Under the pieces are notes generated by a model. The model was not told the DNA's origin. It did not search any database and was given only the letters and a program-made list of their open reading frames with translations. Positions 6,483 through 44,265 of a DNA stretch of 64,000 nt are shown here, one piece after another. Each line of letters opens with the position of its first letter. Position 1 is the first letter of the stretch. Origin of the DNA: Actinomycetota bacterium (lineage in GTDB: Bacteria; Actinomycetota; Acidimicrobiia; Acidimicrobiales; JAJPHD01); NCBI GenBank assembly GCA_021325455.1, contig JAJPHD010000020.1, forward strand, positions 1 through 64,000, given 5' to 3'. A program made the translations under genes and the position numbers.

Positions 6483-8185
6483 CCAACGTCCTTCCCACCG
6501 GCACCTTGCGGCCCCCGCGCCTGGTAACGAGGCACCGGCGCCCCCCTGCCTCCGCAGGGCCGCGCCTGGTGGTCCTCACCCCCCTCGGGATCGAGGCCAC
6601 CGCCGTGCGCAGGAGCGCGCCCGGGGCCCGGGTGCTGGTGACGGGCATGGGCCCCCGCCGCGTGGGGGCCTGGCGGGGGTTGCACCCCCGGGGCCTTGGC
6701 GGGGCGGGGGCGGTGGCGGTGATGGGCTTTGGTGGGGCGGTCCAGGACGGACTCCGGCCCGGAGACCTGGTGGTGGCCACCGAGGTCCGGTGCCCTGACG
6801 GCACCGTCACTCCTCTCCCCTGCGCCCCCCTGGTGGCTGGCGCCCTGCGACGCGCCGGCCTGGTGGCCCATCTCGGGCCCATCGCCTCCCGCCGGCACCT
6901 GGTGCGGGGGGCCGAGCGCCGACGGCTGGCGGCCACCGGGGCGCTGGCTGTGGACATGGAGTCGGGGTGGCTGGTACCCGGGCTAACCAGCACCGGCCAG
7001 CCGCCGGGGGAGGGGACCGGCCATACCGGCCCAGGCGGAGCCGGTGAGCCTGATGGCGCCGCCGGGCTGCCCGGCGGGGCCGACCGGGCCCGGGGCCTCG
7101 GGCCCCTCCCGGTGGCGGTGGTCAGGGCCATCGTGGACACCCCTTCCACGGGCCTTTCCTCCCCCGCCACCCTGGTGGGGGGGCTGAGGGCCTATCGCTC
7201 GCTGGCCCGGGCCGCAGCCGCCCTGGGCCCGTGGGCGGAGGCCACCCTGGGCGAGGGTGAGGCCCGCCGGGTCCTGCTGGCCGGGCCCCGCTCGTTCTGC
7301 GCCGGGGTGGAGAGGGCCATCGAGATCGTGGAGCGCTGCCTGGAGTGCTTCGGGCCCCCTGTCTACGTGAGGCGCCAGATCGTCCACAACCGCCATGTGG
7401 TGGCCGCCCTGGAGGCCAAGGGGGCCATCTTCGTGGAGGAGCTGGACGAGGTCCCCGAGGGCGCCACCGTGGTGTTCTCGGCCCATGGCGTCTCCCCGGC
7501 GGTCCGCCAGGAGGCGGGGGCCAAGAACCTGCACGTCATCGACGCCACCTGCCCGCTCGTGGCCAAGGTGCACGCCGAGACCCGCCGCTTCTCCCGCAAG
7601 GGCTACCAGATCGTCCTCGTCGGCCACGCCGGCCACGAGGAGATCCAGGGCACCATGGGAGAGGCCCCCGAGGCCATCCACCTAGTCGAGGGGCCCGAGG
7701 ACGTGGAGGGCCTGGACCTGGACGCTTCCCTCCAGGTCGCCTACCTGACCCAGACCACGCTGGCCACCGACGAGGTGGCCGGGGTGGTGGACCGGCTCCG
7801 GGACCGCTTCCCCAACCTGATAGGCCCGGCCGCTGACGACATCTGCTACGCCACCCAGAACCGCCAGGAGGCGGTACGCTCGCTGGCCGGGGCGTGCGAC
7901 GTGCTGATCGTCGTGGGCTCGGCCAACTCGTCCAACTCCAACCGGCTGGTGGAGGTGGCCGAGCGGCTGGGATGCCCAGCCCACCTGATAGACGACGCCG
8001 AGGGCCTCGACCCCACCTGGTTGGTCGAGGCCAGGACTGTGGGTATCACAGCTGGTGCCTCGGCTCCCGAGTCCATGGTGCAAGGAGTGGTCTCGGCGCT
8101 GGCGTCCCTCGGCCCCGTCCAGGTCTCCGAGCACCCGGTGACCACAGAGTCCGTACAATTCCCCCTACCCACGGAGGTCCGCTAG
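6479..8185 (+). CDS. ispH: Fusion of HpnG-like nucleoside phosphorylase and IspH reductase
   Basis: A 568-residue protein with two recognisable parts. Residues about 28-250 resemble the nucleoside phosphorylase family used in hopanoid synthesis (HpnG). They contain a VVLTPLGIEATAV strand, a Gly-rich VMGFGGAVQDGLRPGD segment at 81-96 and an AVDMESG motif at 157-163. Residues about 262-560 are a complete IspH (4-hydroxy-3-methylbut-2-enyl diphosphate reductase). Its three iron-sulfur cysteines are at 274 (RSFCAGVERA), 358 (DATCPLVAKVH) and 456 (DDICYATQNRQ), and SANSSNSNRL is at 481-490. IspH makes IPP and DMAPP; HpnG phosphorolyses adenosylhopane. A Gly/Pro-rich insert at about 168-208 lies within the first domain. 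ATG 6479 overlaps the shc stop. There is no stop or frameshift between the parts. Confidence 0.88.
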   Translation: MTNVLPTGTLRPPRLVTRHRRPPASAGPRLVVLTPLGIEATAVRRSAPGARVLVTGMGPRRVGAWRGLHPRGLGGAGAVAVMGFGGAVQDGLRPGDLVVATEVRCPDGTVTPLPCAPLVAGALRRAGLVAHLGPIASRRHLVRGAERRRLAATGALAVDMESGWLVPGLTSTGQPPGEGTGHTGPGGAGEPDGAAGLPGGADRARGLGPLPVAVVRAIVDTPSTGLSSPATLVGGLRAYRSLARAAAALGPWAEATLGEGEARRVLLAGPRSFCAGVERAIEIVERCLECFGPPVYVRRQIVHNRHVVAALEAKGAIFVEELDEVPEGATVVFSAHGVSPAVRQEAGAKNLHVIDATCPLVAKVHAETRRFSRKGYQIVLVGHAGHEEIQGTMGEAPEAIHLVEGPEDVEGLDLDASLQVAYLTQTTLATDEVAGVVDRLRDRFPNLIGPAADDICYATQNRQEAVRSLAGACDVLIVVGSANSSNSNRLVEVAERLGCPAHLIDDAEGLDPTWLVEARTVGITAGASAPESMVQGVVSALASLGPVQVSEHPVTTESVQFPLPTEVR

Positions 8186-38469: not shown

Positions 38470-39453
38470 TCAACCCCCCTTGGCCAGGAGGCGCGTGCCG
38501 TGGCGCCCCTCCAGGGCGGCGGTGACCTTGGCGGCGGAGGTGATGACCGCAACCTCCCCCCCATGGCGGAGGAAGCGGACGGCGGCAGACACCTTGGGAC
38601 CCATGCTGCCGGAGCGGAACTGCCCCTCGGCCAGGTGCGCCTCCGCCTCCTCGGCGGTCATCTCCGCAACGGGCCGCTCCTCGGGGGTCCCGAAGCCCAG
38701 CGAGACCTGGTCCACGTCCGTGACCAGCACCAGCGCCACCGCCCCGAGCGAGGTGGCCAGCCGCTCGGCAGCCAGGTCCTTGTCGATGACGGCCTCGACC
38801 CCGCTCAGCCCCTGCCCCTCCCGCACCACCGGGACACCGCCCCCGCCCGCCGCCAGCACCAGGTAGCCGGCGCTCACCAGGAGCCCGATGGCCTCCGCCT
38901 CCACGATCTCGAGGGGATCGGGCGACACCACCACCCGGCGCCAACCCCCCGGGGGCAGGTGCTGGACCGTCCATCCCTTCTCGGCAGCCAGGCGGCGGGC
39001 CCGCTCGGGAGGAAAGTAGGGGCCGATGGGCTTGCTGGGTGAGGCAAAGGCGGCATCGGCGGGATCCACGACCACGTGGGTGACCACCGGGACGACCCGG
39101 CCCTGCAGGTCAGCTCCCACTTGCCACAGGGCCAGCTCGAGCAGGCTCCCCAGCTGGCCCTGGGTCATGGCCCCCAGGGCGAACAAGGGCTGGGGCGGCA
39201 CCAGGCGGGCTCCTTCCTCCTGCTGGATGGCCAGGGACCCCACCTGGGGGCCGTTCCCGTGCACCACCGCCAGCCGGTAGCCGGCTGCGTCGAGGCCGGC
39301 CAGGGCCCGGGCCATCGGCAGGGCATTGGCCATCTGCTCCTCGAAGCGGCCCGCCTCCCCCGCCCGGGCCAGGGCGTTCCCGCCGATGGCCACGACCGCC
39401 GTGGGGCGGGGAACCCCGGTCCGCTCATCGTTGCCTACCGGGCCTTCCGCCAT
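38470..39453 (-). CDS. arcC: Carbamate kinase
   Basis: A 327-residue amino-acid-kinase-fold protein. VVAIGGNAL follows a 20-residue extension, AVVHGNGPQVG and ALGAMTQGQLG match carbamate kinase, and the later VEAVIDKDLAAERLA and FRSGSMGPKVSAAVRFL segments are conserved. The enzyme interconverts carbamoyl phosphate plus ADP with carbamate plus ATP. No arginine deiminase or ornithine transcarbamylase gene is adjacent. ATG 39453 is used; it overlaps the end of the cation transporter gene by 19 bases, suggesting co-transcription. Confidence 0.93.
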   Translation of the reverse strand: MAEGPVGNDERTGVPRPTAVVAIGGNALARAGEAGRFEEQMANALPMARALAGLDAAGYRLAVVHGNGPQVGSLAIQQEEGARLVPPQPLFALGAMTQGQLGSLLELALWQVGADLQGRVVPVVTHVVVDPADAAFASPSKPIGPYFPPERARRLAAEKGWTVQHLPPGGWRRVVVSPDPLEIVEAEAIGLLVSAGYLVLAAGGGGVPVVREGQGLSGVEAVIDKDLAAERLATSLGAVALVLVTDVDQVSLGFGTPEERPVAEMTAEEAEAHLAEGQFRSGSMGPKVSAAVRFLRHGGEVAVITSAAKVTAALEGRHGTRLLAKGG

Positions 39454-40085
39454 CCCTCGACCCCCTCCCTCATGGCCACCACCGCCACGACAAGGGCGGC
39501 GGTGGCGTCCGCCCACCACCATCCCACCACGAGGTCGAGCACCAGAGCCAGCAGCACGCCACCGGCCAGCGCCGCGTCCAGGAGGGTCATGGTGGCGTTG
39601 GCCAGCAAGGGGGGGCTCGGGAGGGCCAGCCCCACCCGGCGCTTGGCCCGGGCCAGGCAGGCCATGGCCACCACCGTCAGGGCCAGGACCGCGATACCGG
39701 CCGGCGAGCGGGCAGGGTGGGACCCCGTGACGATCCCCCGGCTGCCCGCAGCGGCCAGGTATAGGCCGAGCGCCCCAAAGGCCCCTGCCACCAGGCGCTC
39801 AGCCCTCCGGCTCCCACCCCCCGCCGGGCCGCCCAGGTGCCAGATGACCACCAGCGAGGCGAAGACCTCCACCAGCGAGTCCAGGCCAAAGGCCACCAGG
39901 GCCAGCGAGTTGGCCAGGAAGCCGAGGGACAGGGTCGCCACCACCTCCCCGGCGTTCCAGGCGGTGGTGACGAGCTCGAGGTGCCGGCCCCGCCGTCGCA
40001 ACCGCCGCTGGTCAGGTGGGCGAGGAAGGGGGCACTGGGTTCGGGGCCGTTCGGCCTGGGCCGCCGCTGCTGCCGCCATCGACAT
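39435..40085 (-). CDS. Short cation diffusion facilitator-like transporter
   Basis: A 216-residue membrane protein with about five hydrophobic helices. The helix LALVAFGLDSLVEVFASLVV carries an Asp and a Glu, and a later WWWADATAALVVAVVA segment holds another Asp, resembling the metal-binding helices of CDF transporters. It lacks the usual C-terminal cytoplasmic dimerisation domain, as in other short actinobacterial members. The metal is unknown. Its 3' end overlaps the carbamate kinase gene. The Arg-rich N-terminus up to residue 35 is cytoplasmic. Confidence 0.72.
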   Translation of the reverse strand: MSMAAAAAAQAERPRTQCPLPRPPDQRRLRRRGRHLELVTTAWNAGEVVATLSLGFLANSLALVAFGLDSLVEVFASLVVIWHLGGPAGGGSRRAERLVAGAFGALGLYLAAAGSRGIVTGSHPARSPAGIAVLALTVVAMACLARAKRRVGLALPSPPLLANATMTLLDAALAGGVLLALVLDLVVGWWWADATAALVVAVVAMREGVEGWRKAR

Positions 40086-40232: not shown

Positions 40233-40688
40233 CTACTCCCCTTCGTTGCCCATACTAGCCCCCGACGATCGGAGGGTGGTGCGGGGGCTCTCGGGGCGGA
40301 GCTCGATGTCGACGATGTTCACGGCCACCACGGAGGCCAGGCCGGCGTGGGACCGCACCTGGGCCCTCACCTCCTCCTGTACCGCCCTTCCCACCTCGAG
40401 GCACGGATAGCCGAGGCGGGTCACCACATCCAGCTCGATGCGGGCCACCTGCCCGTCCACCTCCACCCTCACTCCCTCGGCAGAGGCCTCCTTCGGCCGG
40501 TCCTGGAGCTGGTCCCTCACCCGGCCGGCCAACAGGGCCACCGCCTGGCTGAGGCGGGACCGCAAGGCCACCACCCCGGGCACCCGCCCCGCGTAGTGGG
40601 CGGCCACCTTGGCCACCACCTGGTCCGAGACCCTCACCCCCACCGGGGGGCCGGAAGGGGCCGGGGGACCGGGCTCGGTGTCCCTCAC
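40233..40688 (-). CDS. Asp23/Gls24 family envelope stress protein
   Basis: A 151-residue Asp23-family protein. Residues about 20-135 contain the domain, with VRVSDQVVAKVAAHYAGRV, then a GVRVEVDGQVARIELDVV strand pair, a LEVGRAVQEEVRAQVRSHAG helix, and VVAVNIVDIEL. In Staphylococcus, Asp23 is tethered to the membrane by AmaP, and a homologue of AmaP is encoded about 3 kb away. The frame is open to 40757, but that stretch overlaps the upstream gene. GTG 40688 with GGGGG upstream is preferred. Last gene of the leftward sigma-factor operon. Confidence 0.85.
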   Translation of the reverse strand: MRDTEPGPPAPSGPPVGVRVSDQVVAKVAAHYAGRVPGVVALRSRLSQAVALLAGRVRDQLQDRPKEASAEGVRVEVDGQVARIELDVVTRLGYPCLEVGRAVQEEVRAQVRSHAGLASVVAVNIVDIELRPESPRTTLRSSGASMGNEGE

Positions 40689-40710
40689 CGTACGACCCCC
40701 GAGGACAGCC

Positions 40711-41325
40711 TCAGAGCCGCCGCCGCCACCTGGCCTGCTCCTCCTCGAAGACGTCAACCACCTCCACGTCCACCGTCCTCACCTCCAGGCCCAGCAGCCT
40801 GGCCCCCCCCTCCACCACCACCTGCCTCACCGAGTCCGCCGTGGAGGGGATGTCCATGCCGACCGCTACGGCCACCGTGAGGGCGACCGTCACCGGGATC
40901 CGCCTCGCCGGCCCTCCTTCCGCCTCGTTCCCGAGCTCCCCGTGCCCCTCGACGGGGAGGATGCGGCAGCTGCGGGCCCGCAGCCCCGGGACCTGGTCCA
41001 GCAGCTGGCGGAGGGTGCCGGCTGCCGCCCCCCGCTCGAGGCGGATGGGACCCAGCGGGGACGGGAGCACCAGCCAGGCCCTGGGCCGCAGCTCCGCCCT
41101 CACCCTGGACATGATCCGCTCGGCCAGGTGGGCAGGTGGCTCGACCGGCTGGCGCAGGTAGCGTTCCACCGGGTCCTGGATGGAGCGGTACTCGCTCACC
41201 ACCTTCTGGCAGTAGGGGCAGGCCTGCTCGTGGGGATCGAGGGTGCCAGCGGCGGCGTGGTCCCACACCTCGGAAGGATCGCGGCCGCAGATGAGCCGGG
41301 GCAGGTCCTCTGCGCTCATCGCCAT
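40711..41325 (-). CDS. Anti-sigma-like zinc-finger protein fused to an Asp23 domain
   Basis: A 204-residue protein with two parts. Residues about 10-50 contain a zinc-finger anti-sigma pattern: a Cys at 13, His at about 23 and 32, and CPYC at 36-39, close to the HxxxCxxC of ZAS domains. Residues about 75-195 resemble an Asp23/Gls24 domain, ending in the LGLEVRTVDVEVVDVFEE strand. There is no transmembrane helix. It overlaps the sigma-factor gene by 10 bases, the usual layout for a sigma/anti-sigma pair. The fused Asp23 domain could recruit it to an Asp23/AmaP assembly. Confidence 0.75.
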   Translation of the reverse strand: MAMSAEDLPRLICGRDPSEVWDHAAAGTLDPHEQACPYCQKVVSEYRSIQDPVERYLRQPVEPPAHLAERIMSRVRAELRPRAWLVLPSPLGPIRLERGAAAGTLRQLLDQVPGLRARSCRILPVEGHGELGNEAEGGPARRIPVTVALTVAVAVGMDIPSTADSVRQVVVEGGARLLGLEVRTVDVEVVDVFEEEQARWRRRL

Positions 41326-41954
41326 GGCTGCATCACCTCCGCCAGCCGGCGTCTGGCCCGATGTATCCGGCCCCGCACGGCCGCGGGGCTCCCTCCCACT
41401 ATGGCAGCAATCTCGGAGTAGCTGAGCCCCTCGCCCTCCCGGAGGAGCCAGCAGGCCCGCTGGTCGGGAGGCAAGCGGGCCAGGGCCAGGCGGAGGGCGC
41501 CCAGCTGCTCGTTGGCCTCCACCCCCCTCTCGGGACCCCTGGCCTCGGGGCCGGCTACCTCCTCGGCAGCGCCGTCAAGGGAGGTGGCGGGCCGGCGGGA
41601 CCGGACCATGTTGAGGCAGCGGTTGGTGACTATGCGGTACATCCACGAGGAGAAGGCGGCCTCCCCCCGGTAGCCGCGCAGGCGCCGCCAGGCCGAGAGG
41701 AACGACTCCTGGGTGGCGTCCTCGGCCTCGCCCGGGTCGTCCAGGAGGCGCAGCGCCAAGCGGTACATGGCCGGCTGGTAGCGGACCACTAGCTCTCCGT
41801 AGGCGGCCGTGTCCCCCTCCTGGGCCCGCACCACCAAGGTGTCGTCGTCAAGGCGGTAAGGGTCGCTGATGGGGCCCAAGCTTTGCACCCCGGCACTGGC
41901 CTCGGCCCACTCGATCCAAGCGTGACGATCCGGGCCGGCCTGTGTCCCAACCAT
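41316..41954 (-). CDS. ECF-type RNA polymerase sigma factor
   Basis: A 212-residue sigma-70 family ECF factor. Region 2 spans about residues 42-110 and includes the DPGEAEDATQESFLSAWRRL core-binding and -10-reading helices. Region 4 occupies the C-terminal 60 residues (LPPDQRACWLLREGEGLSYSEIAAI then a GSPAAVRGRIHRARRRLAE recognition helix). The N-terminal start is uncertain: ATG 41954 is used, ATG 42017 is also open, and family similarity begins only near residue 37. It heads an operon with a zinc-finger anti-sigma and an Asp23 protein, and is divergent from the AmaP operon that it may control. Confidence 0.88.
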   Translation of the reverse strand: MVGTQAGPDRHAWIEWAEASAGVQSLGPISDPYRLDDDTLVVRAQEGDTAAYGELVVRYQPAMYRLALRLLDDPGEAEDATQESFLSAWRRLRGYRGEAAFSSWMYRIVTNRCLNMVRSRRPATSLDGAAEEVAGPEARGPERGVEANEQLGALRLALARLPPDQRACWLLREGEGLSYSEIAAIVGGSPAAVRGRIHRARRRLAEVMQPWR

Positions 41955-41995
41955 TGTCGGGCCAACCGGGTCTTCCCCAGAAGAAGGAGCACAAG

Positions 41996-42205
41996 TTGTC
42001 GCGTCGCCAGTACGCATTCATAGTCGGGTTCCTCTTCGTGTGGCTGGCCTACGTGTCCGGCCCCGTCGTCGTGGCCGCCCTGGCCGCCGGCGTCATCGCC
42101 TGGCTGGCCGTTCGGGCCCTCGAGGGCGACCTGGCGTTCGCGGAGTGGCTGGAGCGCTTCCGCGACGAAGGTGCCCCCTCGCGGCGGCAGGAGAGCCGGC
42201 GGTAG
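41996..42205 (+). CDS. DUF2273-like small membrane protein
   Basis: A 69-residue protein with one long hydrophobic segment at about residues 7-34 (YAFIVGFLFVWLAYVSGPVV and on), followed by a charged amphipathic tail. Its position beside Asp23 and AmaP genes matches the small DUF2273 membrane proteins found in such loci in Firmicutes and actinobacteria. TTG 41996 is chosen because GAAGGAG stands 8 bases upstream. GTG 41942 is an alternative that would overlap the sigma-factor N-terminus. First gene of the rightward envelope-stress operon. Confidence 0.7.
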   Translation: MSRRQYAFIVGFLFVWLAYVSGPVVVAALAAGVIAWLAVRALEGDLAFAEWLERFRDEGAPSRRQESRR

Positions 42206-42282
42206 GGCCATGGGTGCCCCGGGGACCCAAAGAGACCAAGACGAGTTGACGAGATGAAACAGCACAAAGGAGAACCAAGACC

Positions 42283-42804
42283 ATGAGCGACCCCGCCGTC
42301 CGCGCTTCGTCCGAGGCCGGGCCCGAGCAGGCTCCCCCGGTCCCCCAACCGTCCCGGCCCGGCCGGCCATCGGTCAGCCCCACCCGACCGGGCGAGGGCG
42401 GGGCCAGCCTCACCAGCGACCGGGGGATCACCAAGATATCCGACGTCGTGGTGGCCAAGATCGCAGCGCTGGCCACGCGCGAGATCGCCGGCGTCCAGGC
42501 CATGGGCACCGGCATGGCCAGGACCTTCGGGGCCATCCGGGCCCGCGTGCCGGGAGGCAGCGAGGGAAGCCTCACCCAGGGCGTTGCCGTGGAGGTGGGC
42601 GAGCGGCAGGCAGCCGTGGACATCGACATCGTCACCTACTACGGCCAGAGCATCGTCGAGGTCACCGAGGCGGTGCGCGCCAACGTCATCTCCCGCATAG
42701 AGAGCATGACCGGCCTCGAGGTGGTCGAGGTGAACATTGCCGTCGACGACCTCTACATAGAGGCCGAAGCGGCCCGCGAGCGTGAGGTCACCCGCGTCGA
42801 ATGA
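42283..42804 (+). CDS. Asp23/Gls24 family envelope stress protein
   Basis: A 173-residue protein. After a Pro/Ser-rich N-terminal 40 residues comes a canonical Asp23 domain: GITKISDVVVAKIAALATRE, a GVAVEVGERQAAVDIDIVTYYG strand pair, a helix ending IESMTGLEVVEVNIAVDD. It has no membrane segment and would be anchored through AmaP. ATG 42283 follows AAAGGAGAA. Its stop overlaps the next start as ATGA. It is the most typical Asp23 protein of the locus. Confidence 0.92.
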   Translation: MSDPAVRASSEAGPEQAPPVPQPSRPGRPSVSPTRPGEGGASLTSDRGITKISDVVVAKIAALATREIAGVQAMGTGMARTFGAIRARVPGGSEGSLTQGVAVEVGERQAAVDIDIVTYYGQSIVEVTEAVRANVISRIESMTGLEVVEVNIAVDDLYIEAEAAREREVTRVE

Positions 42805-43154
42805 CCGGGAGGCAGGGCCTGACACCTCCCCGAGGGGGGGATCGGGCCGATCTCGCCCGGGCCGTGGCCCCCGCCCTGCAGGCAGTGCCCGGGGTGGCCC
42901 GCCTCATGGTGGGACGAGGGGTCGAGGTGGCAACCCACCACGCGGGAGGCAAGGTGGCAGGCGTCAGCCTGGTCGGTGACCGGGTGCTCGTCTGCCTGGT
43001 GGCGGACCGGGTGCCGGTCCACGAGGTGGCGGCCAGGGCCGCCGCGGCTGCCGAAGCCGTGCTGGCCCGCTTCGGCGACACCCGGGTGGTGGACGTGGTC
43101 GTGGACGACCTCGATCTGCCCGAGGACGTCAGCACCGCCGGGGGTTCCTCTTGA
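42801..43154 (+). CDS. Small Asp23-like protein
   Basis: A 117-residue protein. Residues about 20-110 resemble a minimal Asp23 domain, with VAPALQAVPGVARLM, a GVEVATHHAGGKVAGVSLVGD strand region, a long Ala-rich helix and VVDVVVDDLDLPED at the end. It is less conserved than the preceding protein. It is coupled by ATGA to the gene before and by TTGA to the gene after, showing it is part of the same operon. Function presumably as a partner subunit of the Asp23 layer. Confidence 0.72.
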   Translation: MTGRQGLTPPRGGDRADLARAVAPALQAVPGVARLMVGRGVEVATHHAGGKVAGVSLVGDRVLVCLVADRVPVHEVAARAAAAAEAVLARFGDTRVVDVVVDDLDLPEDVSTAGGSS

Positions 43155-43684
43155 GGGCCTTCAACCGACTGCTCGGGATGGCCATGGGCCTGGCCCTGGT
43201 TGGTGCCGGAGGCTTCTGCGCCCTGGAGGTGGTGCTGGCGGCCTTCGGGCACGCCTTCTTGGTCCTGCCTGCCAGCGCCTACCTCCGCGCCCTGCGCACC
43301 ACGCCCTGGTCGGCCACGCCCACCAGGGCGATAGTGGCAGCGGTGGCCGCAGCCGGGCTCCTTCTCTTCGTGGCAGAAGCCTGGCCCCGCCGCCCTCGCC
43401 TCGTCCGCATACCGGCCAGCGACGGCGCCGGACAATGGTGGTTGCGCAGGACCTCCATAGAGAGCCACCTTCGCCGCCACGTGGTGGGCGTCACGCCGGC
43501 CCAGCGAGCCCGGGTGCGCCTGGGTGTGCGCAAGCAGCGCTGGCAGGCCCGCATCAGGACGGTGGCCCCGCTCCACCTGCGGCCCGAGATCGAGGAGGTG
43601 GCGCGCCAGGGCCTGGTCCGCCTGGGAGCTCCCGAAGCCACCACGATCAGGGTCAGGGTCGCAAGGTCCCGGAGGGTGGCATGA
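43151..43684 (+). CDS. DUF6286-like membrane protein
   Basis: A 177-residue protein with two N-terminal hydrophobic helices (about residues 7-40 and 59-75), then a soluble C-terminal domain containing TSIESHLRRHVVGVTPAQRA and a basic Arg-rich region. This layout and the neighbourhood match the DUF6286 proteins located between Asp23 and AmaP genes in actinobacteria. Role unknown, probably a membrane component of the Asp23 complex. The start is a TTG overlapping the previous stop (TTGA), and the end overlaps amaP (ATGA). Confidence 0.72.
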   Translation: MRAFNRLLGMAMGLALVGAGGFCALEVVLAAFGHAFLVLPASAYLRALRTTPWSATPTRAIVAAVAAAGLLLFVAEAWPRRPRLVRIPASDGAGQWWLRRTSIESHLRRHVVGVTPAQRARVRLGVRKQRWQARIRTVAPLHLRPEIEEVARQGLVRLGAPEATTIRVRVARSRRVA

Positions 43685-44265
43685 CCGACAGCGCCAACCG
43701 GGGGCTGTGGCTGGTGGTCGGCCTCATCCTCATGGCCATGGGGGGGGTTGGGCTGAGCTTCTCCTTCGGGGCCTGGGGCGAAGGCGCGGCCCATGCCACC
43801 ATCATCACCCACACCGTCGTGCGGTGGTGGCGTGAGGGGTCCTGGAAGTCCTTCGCCGCAGCGGCCTTCATCGGCTTCGCCTTCCTGGTGCTCGGGCTCT
43901 TGCTCCTGTGGCGGGAGCTCGTCCCCCACCAGGGCCGTGCCCGCCTCGACGACTTCGTCCTGCCCCCGGCCGGGGGAGTCCCCTCCAGGGGGGAGACGGT
44001 GGTCAGGGCCGCCTCGCTGAGCCATGGCCTCGAGGGGGACCTGGAGAGCATCCCCGGGGTGGAACGGGCCCTGGTGGGGCTGTTCGGGACCACCGAGCAC
44101 CTCGCCGTCCGGGCCCGGCTGCGGGTCCTGGACACAGCCGACCTCGAGGAGGTCTCCCGGCGGGCGGCCGAGGCCATGGCGAGGATGGCGAGGACGGCGT
44201 CCCTGCGCACCGAAGATGCCGAGGTGACGGTGTCCCTGGTCGCCTCCGGGACCCGGGTGGGGTGA
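43681..44265 (+). CDS. amaP: AmaP, alkaline shock response membrane anchor
   Basis: A 194-residue protein. Two hydrophobic helices (about 9-28 and 58-80) form a hairpin, followed by a cytoplasmic domain with LEGDLESIPGVERALVGLFG and VRARLRVLDTADLEEVSRRA, resembling the Asp23-like C-terminus of AmaP. AmaP binds Asp23 and holds it at the membrane in Staphylococcus. It is the last gene of the operon and is translationally coupled to the DUF6286-like gene. Confidence 0.85.
   Translation: MTDSANRGLWLVVGLILMAMGGVGLSFSFGAWGEGAAHATIITHTVVRWWREGSWKSFAAAAFIGFAFLVLGLLLLWRELVPHQGRARLDDFVLPPAGGVPSRGETVVRAASLSHGLEGDLESIPGVERALVGLFGTTEHLAVRARLRVLDTADLEEVSRRAAEAMARMARTASLRTEDAEVTVSLVASGTRVG

Follow-up and report, generated by a model that had tools for sequence, protein, structure and literature searches.

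The Asp23 locus and its genes

We describe a locus of eight genes (positions 40233-44265) in the window, by which we mean the whole 64,000-nucleotide stretch of contig JAJPHD010000020.1 from an Actinomycetota bacterium of the order Acidimicrobiales. All eight genes of the initial annotation were recovered in the arrangement that it gave: a leftward trio, encoding an extracytoplasmic function (ECF) sigma factor, a soluble predicted anti-sigma factor and an Asp23 protein (Asp23b), is divergent from a rightward five-gene operon in the order small membrane protein, main Asp23 protein (Asp23a), small Asp23-like protein, DUF6286 protein and AmaP-like protein (Table 1). Across the 2.95 Mb assembly, the Pfam Asp23 profile (PF03780) matches only the leftmost Asp23, the rightward Asp23 and the anti-sigma factor, all at this locus. 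Here, we propose from gene order, domain content and motif conservation that the trio and a promoter in the divergent gap are probably a real control circuit for the Asp23 layer.

The identification of an ECF sigma factor held up, with Pfam scores of 66.5 bits for sigma-70 r2 and 58.3 bits for r4_2, as in a two-domain ECF factor. Its open frame extends to 42017, and its homologues (~184-199 aa) start at the place equivalent to GTG 41888, which is most likely the start. For the first rightward gene, the likeliest start is TTG 41996, which has AAGGAG six bases before it; these two starts leave a divergent gap of 107 bp. Asp23b, whose frame is open to 40757, probably starts at GTG 40688.

Table 1. 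Features of the Asp23 locus in window coordinates.
Feature	Position	Strand	Basis
Asp23b, Asp23 protein directly after the anti-sigma gene	40233..40688	-	PF03780, 49.8 bits
Soluble predicted anti-sigma factor, 204 aa	40711..41325	-	CHCC zinc (ZAS) domain, linker helix and Asp23-fold domain
Asp23-fold domain of the anti-sigma factor, residues 84-193 (invariant C120)	40747..41076	-	hhalign; Pfam in relatives; AlphaFold2
ZAS part of the anti-sigma factor, residues 1-58 (C13, H32, C36, C39)	41152..41325	-	Ligands; helices; NCBIfam matches
ECF sigma factor, ~190 aa	41316..41888	-	Pfam r2 and r4_2; homologue starts; sigma tree
Predicted ECF-type promoter GCGTGACGAT-N10-CTGTGTCCCAAC, toward the Asp23 operon	41920..41951	+	Matrix score; single motif copy in the assembly
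Small membrane protein, first gene of the Asp23 operon	41996..42205	+	Hydrophobic 24-62 of 87-aa frame
Asp23a, main Asp23 protein	42283..42804	+	PF03780, 89.7 bits; AlphaFold2 model
Small Asp23-like protein, 117 aa	42801..43154	+	hhalign profile likeness alone
DUF6286 / AmaP-like membrane protein	43151..43684	+	PF19803, 34.6 bits (cut-off 35); NCBIfam AmaP, 24.4 bits; three hydrophobic segments
AmaP-like two-helix membrane protein	43681..44265	+	NCBIfam AmaP, 20.6 bits; two hydrophobic segments

Architecture of the predicted anti-sigma factor

The second gene of the trio had been read as a zinc-finger anti-sigma factor fused to an Asp23 domain, and the evidence from profiles and models supports a ZAS domain joined to an Asp23-fold domain. 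The N-terminal part carries a ZAS motif, C-X18-H-X3-C-X2-C (C13, H32, C36 and C39), whose ligand set is CHCC, not HHCC, with an N-terminal cysteine (C13) as in the RsrA type. These four ligands and C120 are invariant across 64 aligned relatives, most of which have exactly four cysteines; the DNA search pattern itself favoured C13 and W21 to some extent, but it did not bear on H32, C36, C39 or the other invariant residues. The window protein alone gives no Pfam zinc-finger match and scores 16.8 bits with the NCBIfam antisigma model (cut-off 100), and among the 64 members the general NCBIfam anti-sigma model matches 22 (best E 2.3e-5) and the RsrA model 5. The AlphaFold2 (AF2) model has a helical bundle in the ZAS part (helices 17-26, 31-35 and 37-58) followed by a linker helix (67-79). 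By AF2 and hydrophobicity the protein lacks a transmembrane helix, its sole hydrophobic stretch (143-161) being mostly predicted beta strand. Its gene start overlaps the sigma stop.

In the C-terminal part, PF03780 scores 23.2 bits on the window protein, below the gathering cut-off of 28, and matches through the C-terminal half of the profile only (positions 60-107; residues 145-192). Sub-threshold in Pfam alone, the fusion is borne out by three other results. The Pfam Asp23 profile matches 50 of the 64 relatives (best E 7.8e-7), and DUF6286 matches 49. By hhalign, against Asp23 sets from which anti-sigma factors were excluded, the C-terminal half gives 96.8% with Asp23a (E 2.9e-10) and 94.8% with Asp23b, and its N-terminal counterpart, used as a negative control, matched neither. 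Lastly, AF2 models the domain as beta-alpha-beta-beta-alpha-beta with a mean predicted local distance difference test (pLDDT) score of 88.4, and an independent model of Asp23a has the same element order (mean pLDDT 71, core blocks ~89-97). The profile searches on which the initial annotation had staked its Asp23 reading thus came out in support of it.

Beyond the zinc ligands, the protein has an extra cysteine, C120 (codon 40966-40968), inside the Asp23-fold domain. In both proteins (40747-41076; 42283-42804), the predicted Asp23 fold is similar to a C-terminal domain found in cation-diffusion-facilitator transporters: by Foldseek, the anti-sigma and Asp23a models both match that of MamM in the PDB (E of a few times 1e-3). 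Ring components of type III secretion systems are further matches of the anti-sigma model, a likeness of a kind in keeping with the ability of Asp23 to polymerise (PMC6954212). The PDB yielded no structure of an Asp23 protein, and searching it by sequence gave nothing useful.

Distribution and conservation of the trio

A search for the zinc-finger plus Asp23 architecture, as had been suggested, yielded at least 59 usable trio loci, mainly in Streptomyces and Nocardia and also in Actinokineospora, Arthrobacter and Microtetraspora. The loci were found in named genomes with a DNA pattern over the sigma-stop/anti-sigma-start overlap and a CGR...VW motif, and their number is a lower bound rather than a census. 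Among the matches listed, Asp23b directly follows the anti-sigma gene in 59/59 loci; Asp23a is divergent from the trio in 30, downstream of it in 19 and beyond the retrieved stretch in 10, being near the trio in 49/49 loci long enough to show it; and the matches in non-actinobacteria, Mycolicibacterium agri and Amycolatopsis have no trio. The three genes stand in this same order in dozens of genomes, which excludes a chance arrangement.

Among the genomes sampled in the window's order, the trio occurs in two, the window and L035, whose anti-sigma factors are 60% identical, and Asp23 occurs at all in 18/148. Full-length anti-sigma relatives were found in five further genomes in a sample of the phylum, in 28/29 of the listed genomes of Nocardia (genus g171) and in ~36/121 genomes of the Streptomyces genus. 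Of five plasmid-borne relatives in RefSeq, four are named Asp23/Gls24 family envelope stress response protein and the fifth hypothetical protein.

A predicted promoter linking the sigma factor to the Asp23 operon

A two-part ECF-type promoter motif, GCGTGACG-N15-TGTCC, precedes both the sigma operon and the linked Asp23 operon, and like the trio it is found again in Streptomyces and Nocardia. When spaced words in the regions before the sigma genes were counted without bias, TGACG-N15-TGTC emerged, and the consensus of the sites before the sigma operon and before Asp23a is GCGTGACGAW...CGGTGTCCAAC. In the looser form used for counting (CGTVAC-N15-17-TGTC), the motif is present in 43/62 regions upstream of sigma (shuffle mean 0.50, max 3), in 33/49 upstream of Asp23a (shuffle mean 0.36, max 2) and in 0/26 Asp23 operons that lack a ZAS-type trio.

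With a matrix trained without the window, the top site in the 64 kb was at 41920 (+), scoring 25.4 against 14.0 for the next. The form CGTGACG-N15-TGTC has a single copy in the assembly, in the divergent gap and facing the Asp23 operon; a sigma-dependent promoter in this gap, which the initial annotation had proposed to map, thus has strong support from a conserved motif. Because the motif is conserved upstream and is single in this genome, where it faces the operon, the sigma factor very probably drives the Asp23 operon. Allowing one mismatch gave many scattered matches in the assembly, ~1.7 times a reversed-pattern control, from which a wider regulon cannot be read.

Variant loci and the sigma tree

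In a genus of Mycobacteriaceae (g337), two loci hold a zinc-less trio (L268, 3197-5176; L269, 7215-9185), in which the sigma factor, the Asp23-fold protein and Asp23b still stand together and the CHCC ligands and C120 are gone. Loss of these residues from an otherwise retained trio points to the Asp23 domain as the part of the anti-sigma factor that is essential for sensing. In the sigma tree, the sigmas of these two zinc-less loci are placed with those of the trio, their exact position being weakly supported, and the trio sigmas cluster with zinc-less and divergent Asp23-linked sigmas with moderate support. In two genomes of another Mycobacteriaceae genus (g296), an ECF sigma gene is divergent from an Asp23 gene and there is no ZAS protein (L270, 7733-8986; L271, 5711-6985).

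A different zinc-less protein, of ~250-270 aa and with apparently two Asp23-like stretches, lies divergent from an Asp23 operon in Streptomyces (L088, 7025-7777; L089, 6947-7762; L093, 6982-7803); no ECF gene was found in the 15-kb stretches that hold these three genes.

Comparison with known systems

A 2022 review (PMC8999054) describes two groups of the Casas-Pastor 2021 classification, ECF286 from Streptomyces and ECF292 from Mycolicibacterium, as adjoining soluble Asp23-family predicted anti-sigma factors, without experimental data. The window likewise has an actinobacterial ECF gene beside a soluble, predicted anti-sigma factor of the Asp23 family, a likeness drawn from the group descriptions; the model proteins of the groups are WP_003983642.1 and WP_036395736.1. 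The Streptomyces trio loci are a natural candidate for ECF286, and the g296 loci may be ECF292. The pairing of such a sigma factor with an Asp23 protein is thus already known at the level of classification. What goes beyond the review, which sets ZAS-type and Asp23-type anti-sigma factors in separate groups, is the ZAS-Asp23 fusion, the Asp23b partner, the promoter and the Asp23 operon as target, none of which it mentions. The searchable literature likewise yielded neither the ZAS-Asp23 architecture, nor an obligatory Asp23b, nor a promoter by which the sigma factor is tied to the Asp23 operon.

Among known proteins, RsrA and ChrR are also soluble anti-sigma factors that adjoin an ECF gene and have a C/H-H-C-C zinc site. 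The window protein shares CHCC with RsrA and an added C-terminal domain with ChrR, but this domain folds like Asp23 and not like a cupin, and it carries an invariant cysteine of its own. In Staphylococcus aureus, asp23 is under SigB, the general stress factor, and is not known to be controlled by a linked ECF factor. As in S. aureus, Asp23 protein(s) and AmaP-like membrane proteins share one operon here, although with two or three Asp23-like proteins, a DUF6286 protein, a sigma/anti-sigma pair and a sub-threshold AmaP match. AmaP anchors the S. aureus Asp23, which forms polymers and whose absence leads to induction of cell-wall stress genes (PMC6954212).

What might the circuit sense?

In the circuit that we propose, the ECF sigma factor would transcribe the Asp23 operon from the divergent-gap promoter, and the soluble anti-sigma factor would keep it inactive through the CHCC zinc domain, as expected from its family. 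The Asp23-fold domain would most likely join Asp23b and the AmaP-anchored layer through Asp23-Asp23 contacts, and sigma activity would then track the state or amount of the layer in a homeostatic loop. Thiol stress may be a further input, through the zinc site, and both inputs could act. Such layer sensing fits the anatomy of the locus, and on balance we lean towards a dedicated sigma/anti-sigma circuit for the Asp23-AmaP layer that includes it. In a stricter form, the anti-sigma factor would be built into the Asp23-AmaP polymer via its own Asp23-fold domain, with layer assembly directly setting the activity of the layer-making sigma factor; this we regard as possible rather than probable.

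Several points weigh against the proposed circuit. The anti-sigma function itself is deduced from the order of the genes, the presence of a ZAS motif and weak matches to models, and the Asp23-fold domain may contact itself rather than other Asp23 proteins. The full motif was not found in the nearest relative from the same order (L035/L148). Nor does the window have a copy of the motif directed at the sigma gene, which leaves autoregulation unsupported here. Finally, CHCC zinc sites are known thiol sensors.

This last point makes a redox input a serious rival, because the zinc ligands are CHCC as in RsrA, whose disulfide sensing depends on the first of the cysteines (PMC4960319). The protein would then be an RsrA-type redox or zinc sensor: thiol oxidation would produce a C13-C36/C39 disulfide, zinc would be lost, the sigma factor would be freed and more Asp23 layer would be made, the Asp23 domain merely dimerising, stabilising or placing the anti-sigma factor like the cupin domain beside the ZAS domain of ChrR. 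The invariant ligands and C120, the usual count of exactly four cysteines and the matches to the RsrA and general anti-sigma models are all in keeping with this. However, the one target identified is an operon for the envelope layer, the Asp23 domain and the gene order persist in relatives that lack the zinc ligands, and a zinc motif may be structural, as in RsiW (PMC7406223). We judge a redox sensor of this kind unlikely to be the explanation.

Partner switching, in which the anti-sigma factor binds either the sigma factor or free Asp23b, with Asp23b as anti-anti-sigma factor or co-inhibitor and the layer uninvolved, strikes us as improbable. It would account for the constant position of Asp23b, which is kept even in the zinc-less version, and for the match of the anti-sigma domain to the Asp23b set, but the circuit adjoins a full Asp23-AmaP operon and its promoter faces that operon, which points to the layer itself. 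Very hard to credit is that the zinc-Asp23 protein is no sigma inhibitor but a layer component co-transcribed with a transcriptionally controlled sigma factor, for although RefSeq gives most plasmid-borne relatives Asp23/Gls24 names and the Streptomyces zinc-less relative sits by an Asp23 operon in 15-kb stretches that showed no sigma gene, the ZAS motif, helical bundle, gene overlap, matches to anti-sigma families and strict association with a single sigma lineage speak against it.

Asp23 proteins are widespread in Gram-positive bacteria. If layer sensing by a polymer-built anti-sigma factor is true, it would be a new kind of envelope sensor at the cytoplasmic face, unlike the membrane-spanning anti-sigma factors. 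A conserved sigma factor that is probably wired to the Asp23 operon, together with its predicted Asp23-fold inhibitor, offers a direct way to read out the signals that the layer senses. Our findings also add a candidate sensor domain to the soluble ZAS anti-sigma factors and give a predicted promoter for the poorly understood Asp23-linked ECF groups.

Other genes of the operon and its surroundings

The remaining assignments in the rightward operon were mixed. A DUF2273-like label for the small membrane protein found no support, its sole match being to DUF7649 (E 0.004, below cut-off); homologues stand at the same place in loci L044, L045 and L048. Of the two rightward proteins annotated as Asp23-like, Asp23a is clearly so by Pfam, and the 117-aa protein, which has no Pfam match, is Asp23-like at the profile level only (hhalign, 91% with the Asp23b set and 10% with the Asp23a set). 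For the DUF6286-like and AmaP labels, the membrane segments were found and the family cut-offs were not reached: the first protein falls just short for PF19803, and both fall short of the NCBIfam AmaP cut-off of 55 bits. The DUF6286 and AmaP sets match one another at 96.9%, and the AmaP-like role proposed for these proteins draws on position, membrane helices and profile likeness.

The genome of the nearest relative (L035) has a second, sigma-free Asp23-AmaP operon (L045). At its trio locus (G021:C99), a gene for a CsbD-like stress protein, named by eye, lies between sigma and Asp23a at 7073-7246, oriented as Asp23a. In the window, an open frame adjoining the trio on the same strand (39435-40085), again read by eye, resembles a cation-efflux membrane domain.

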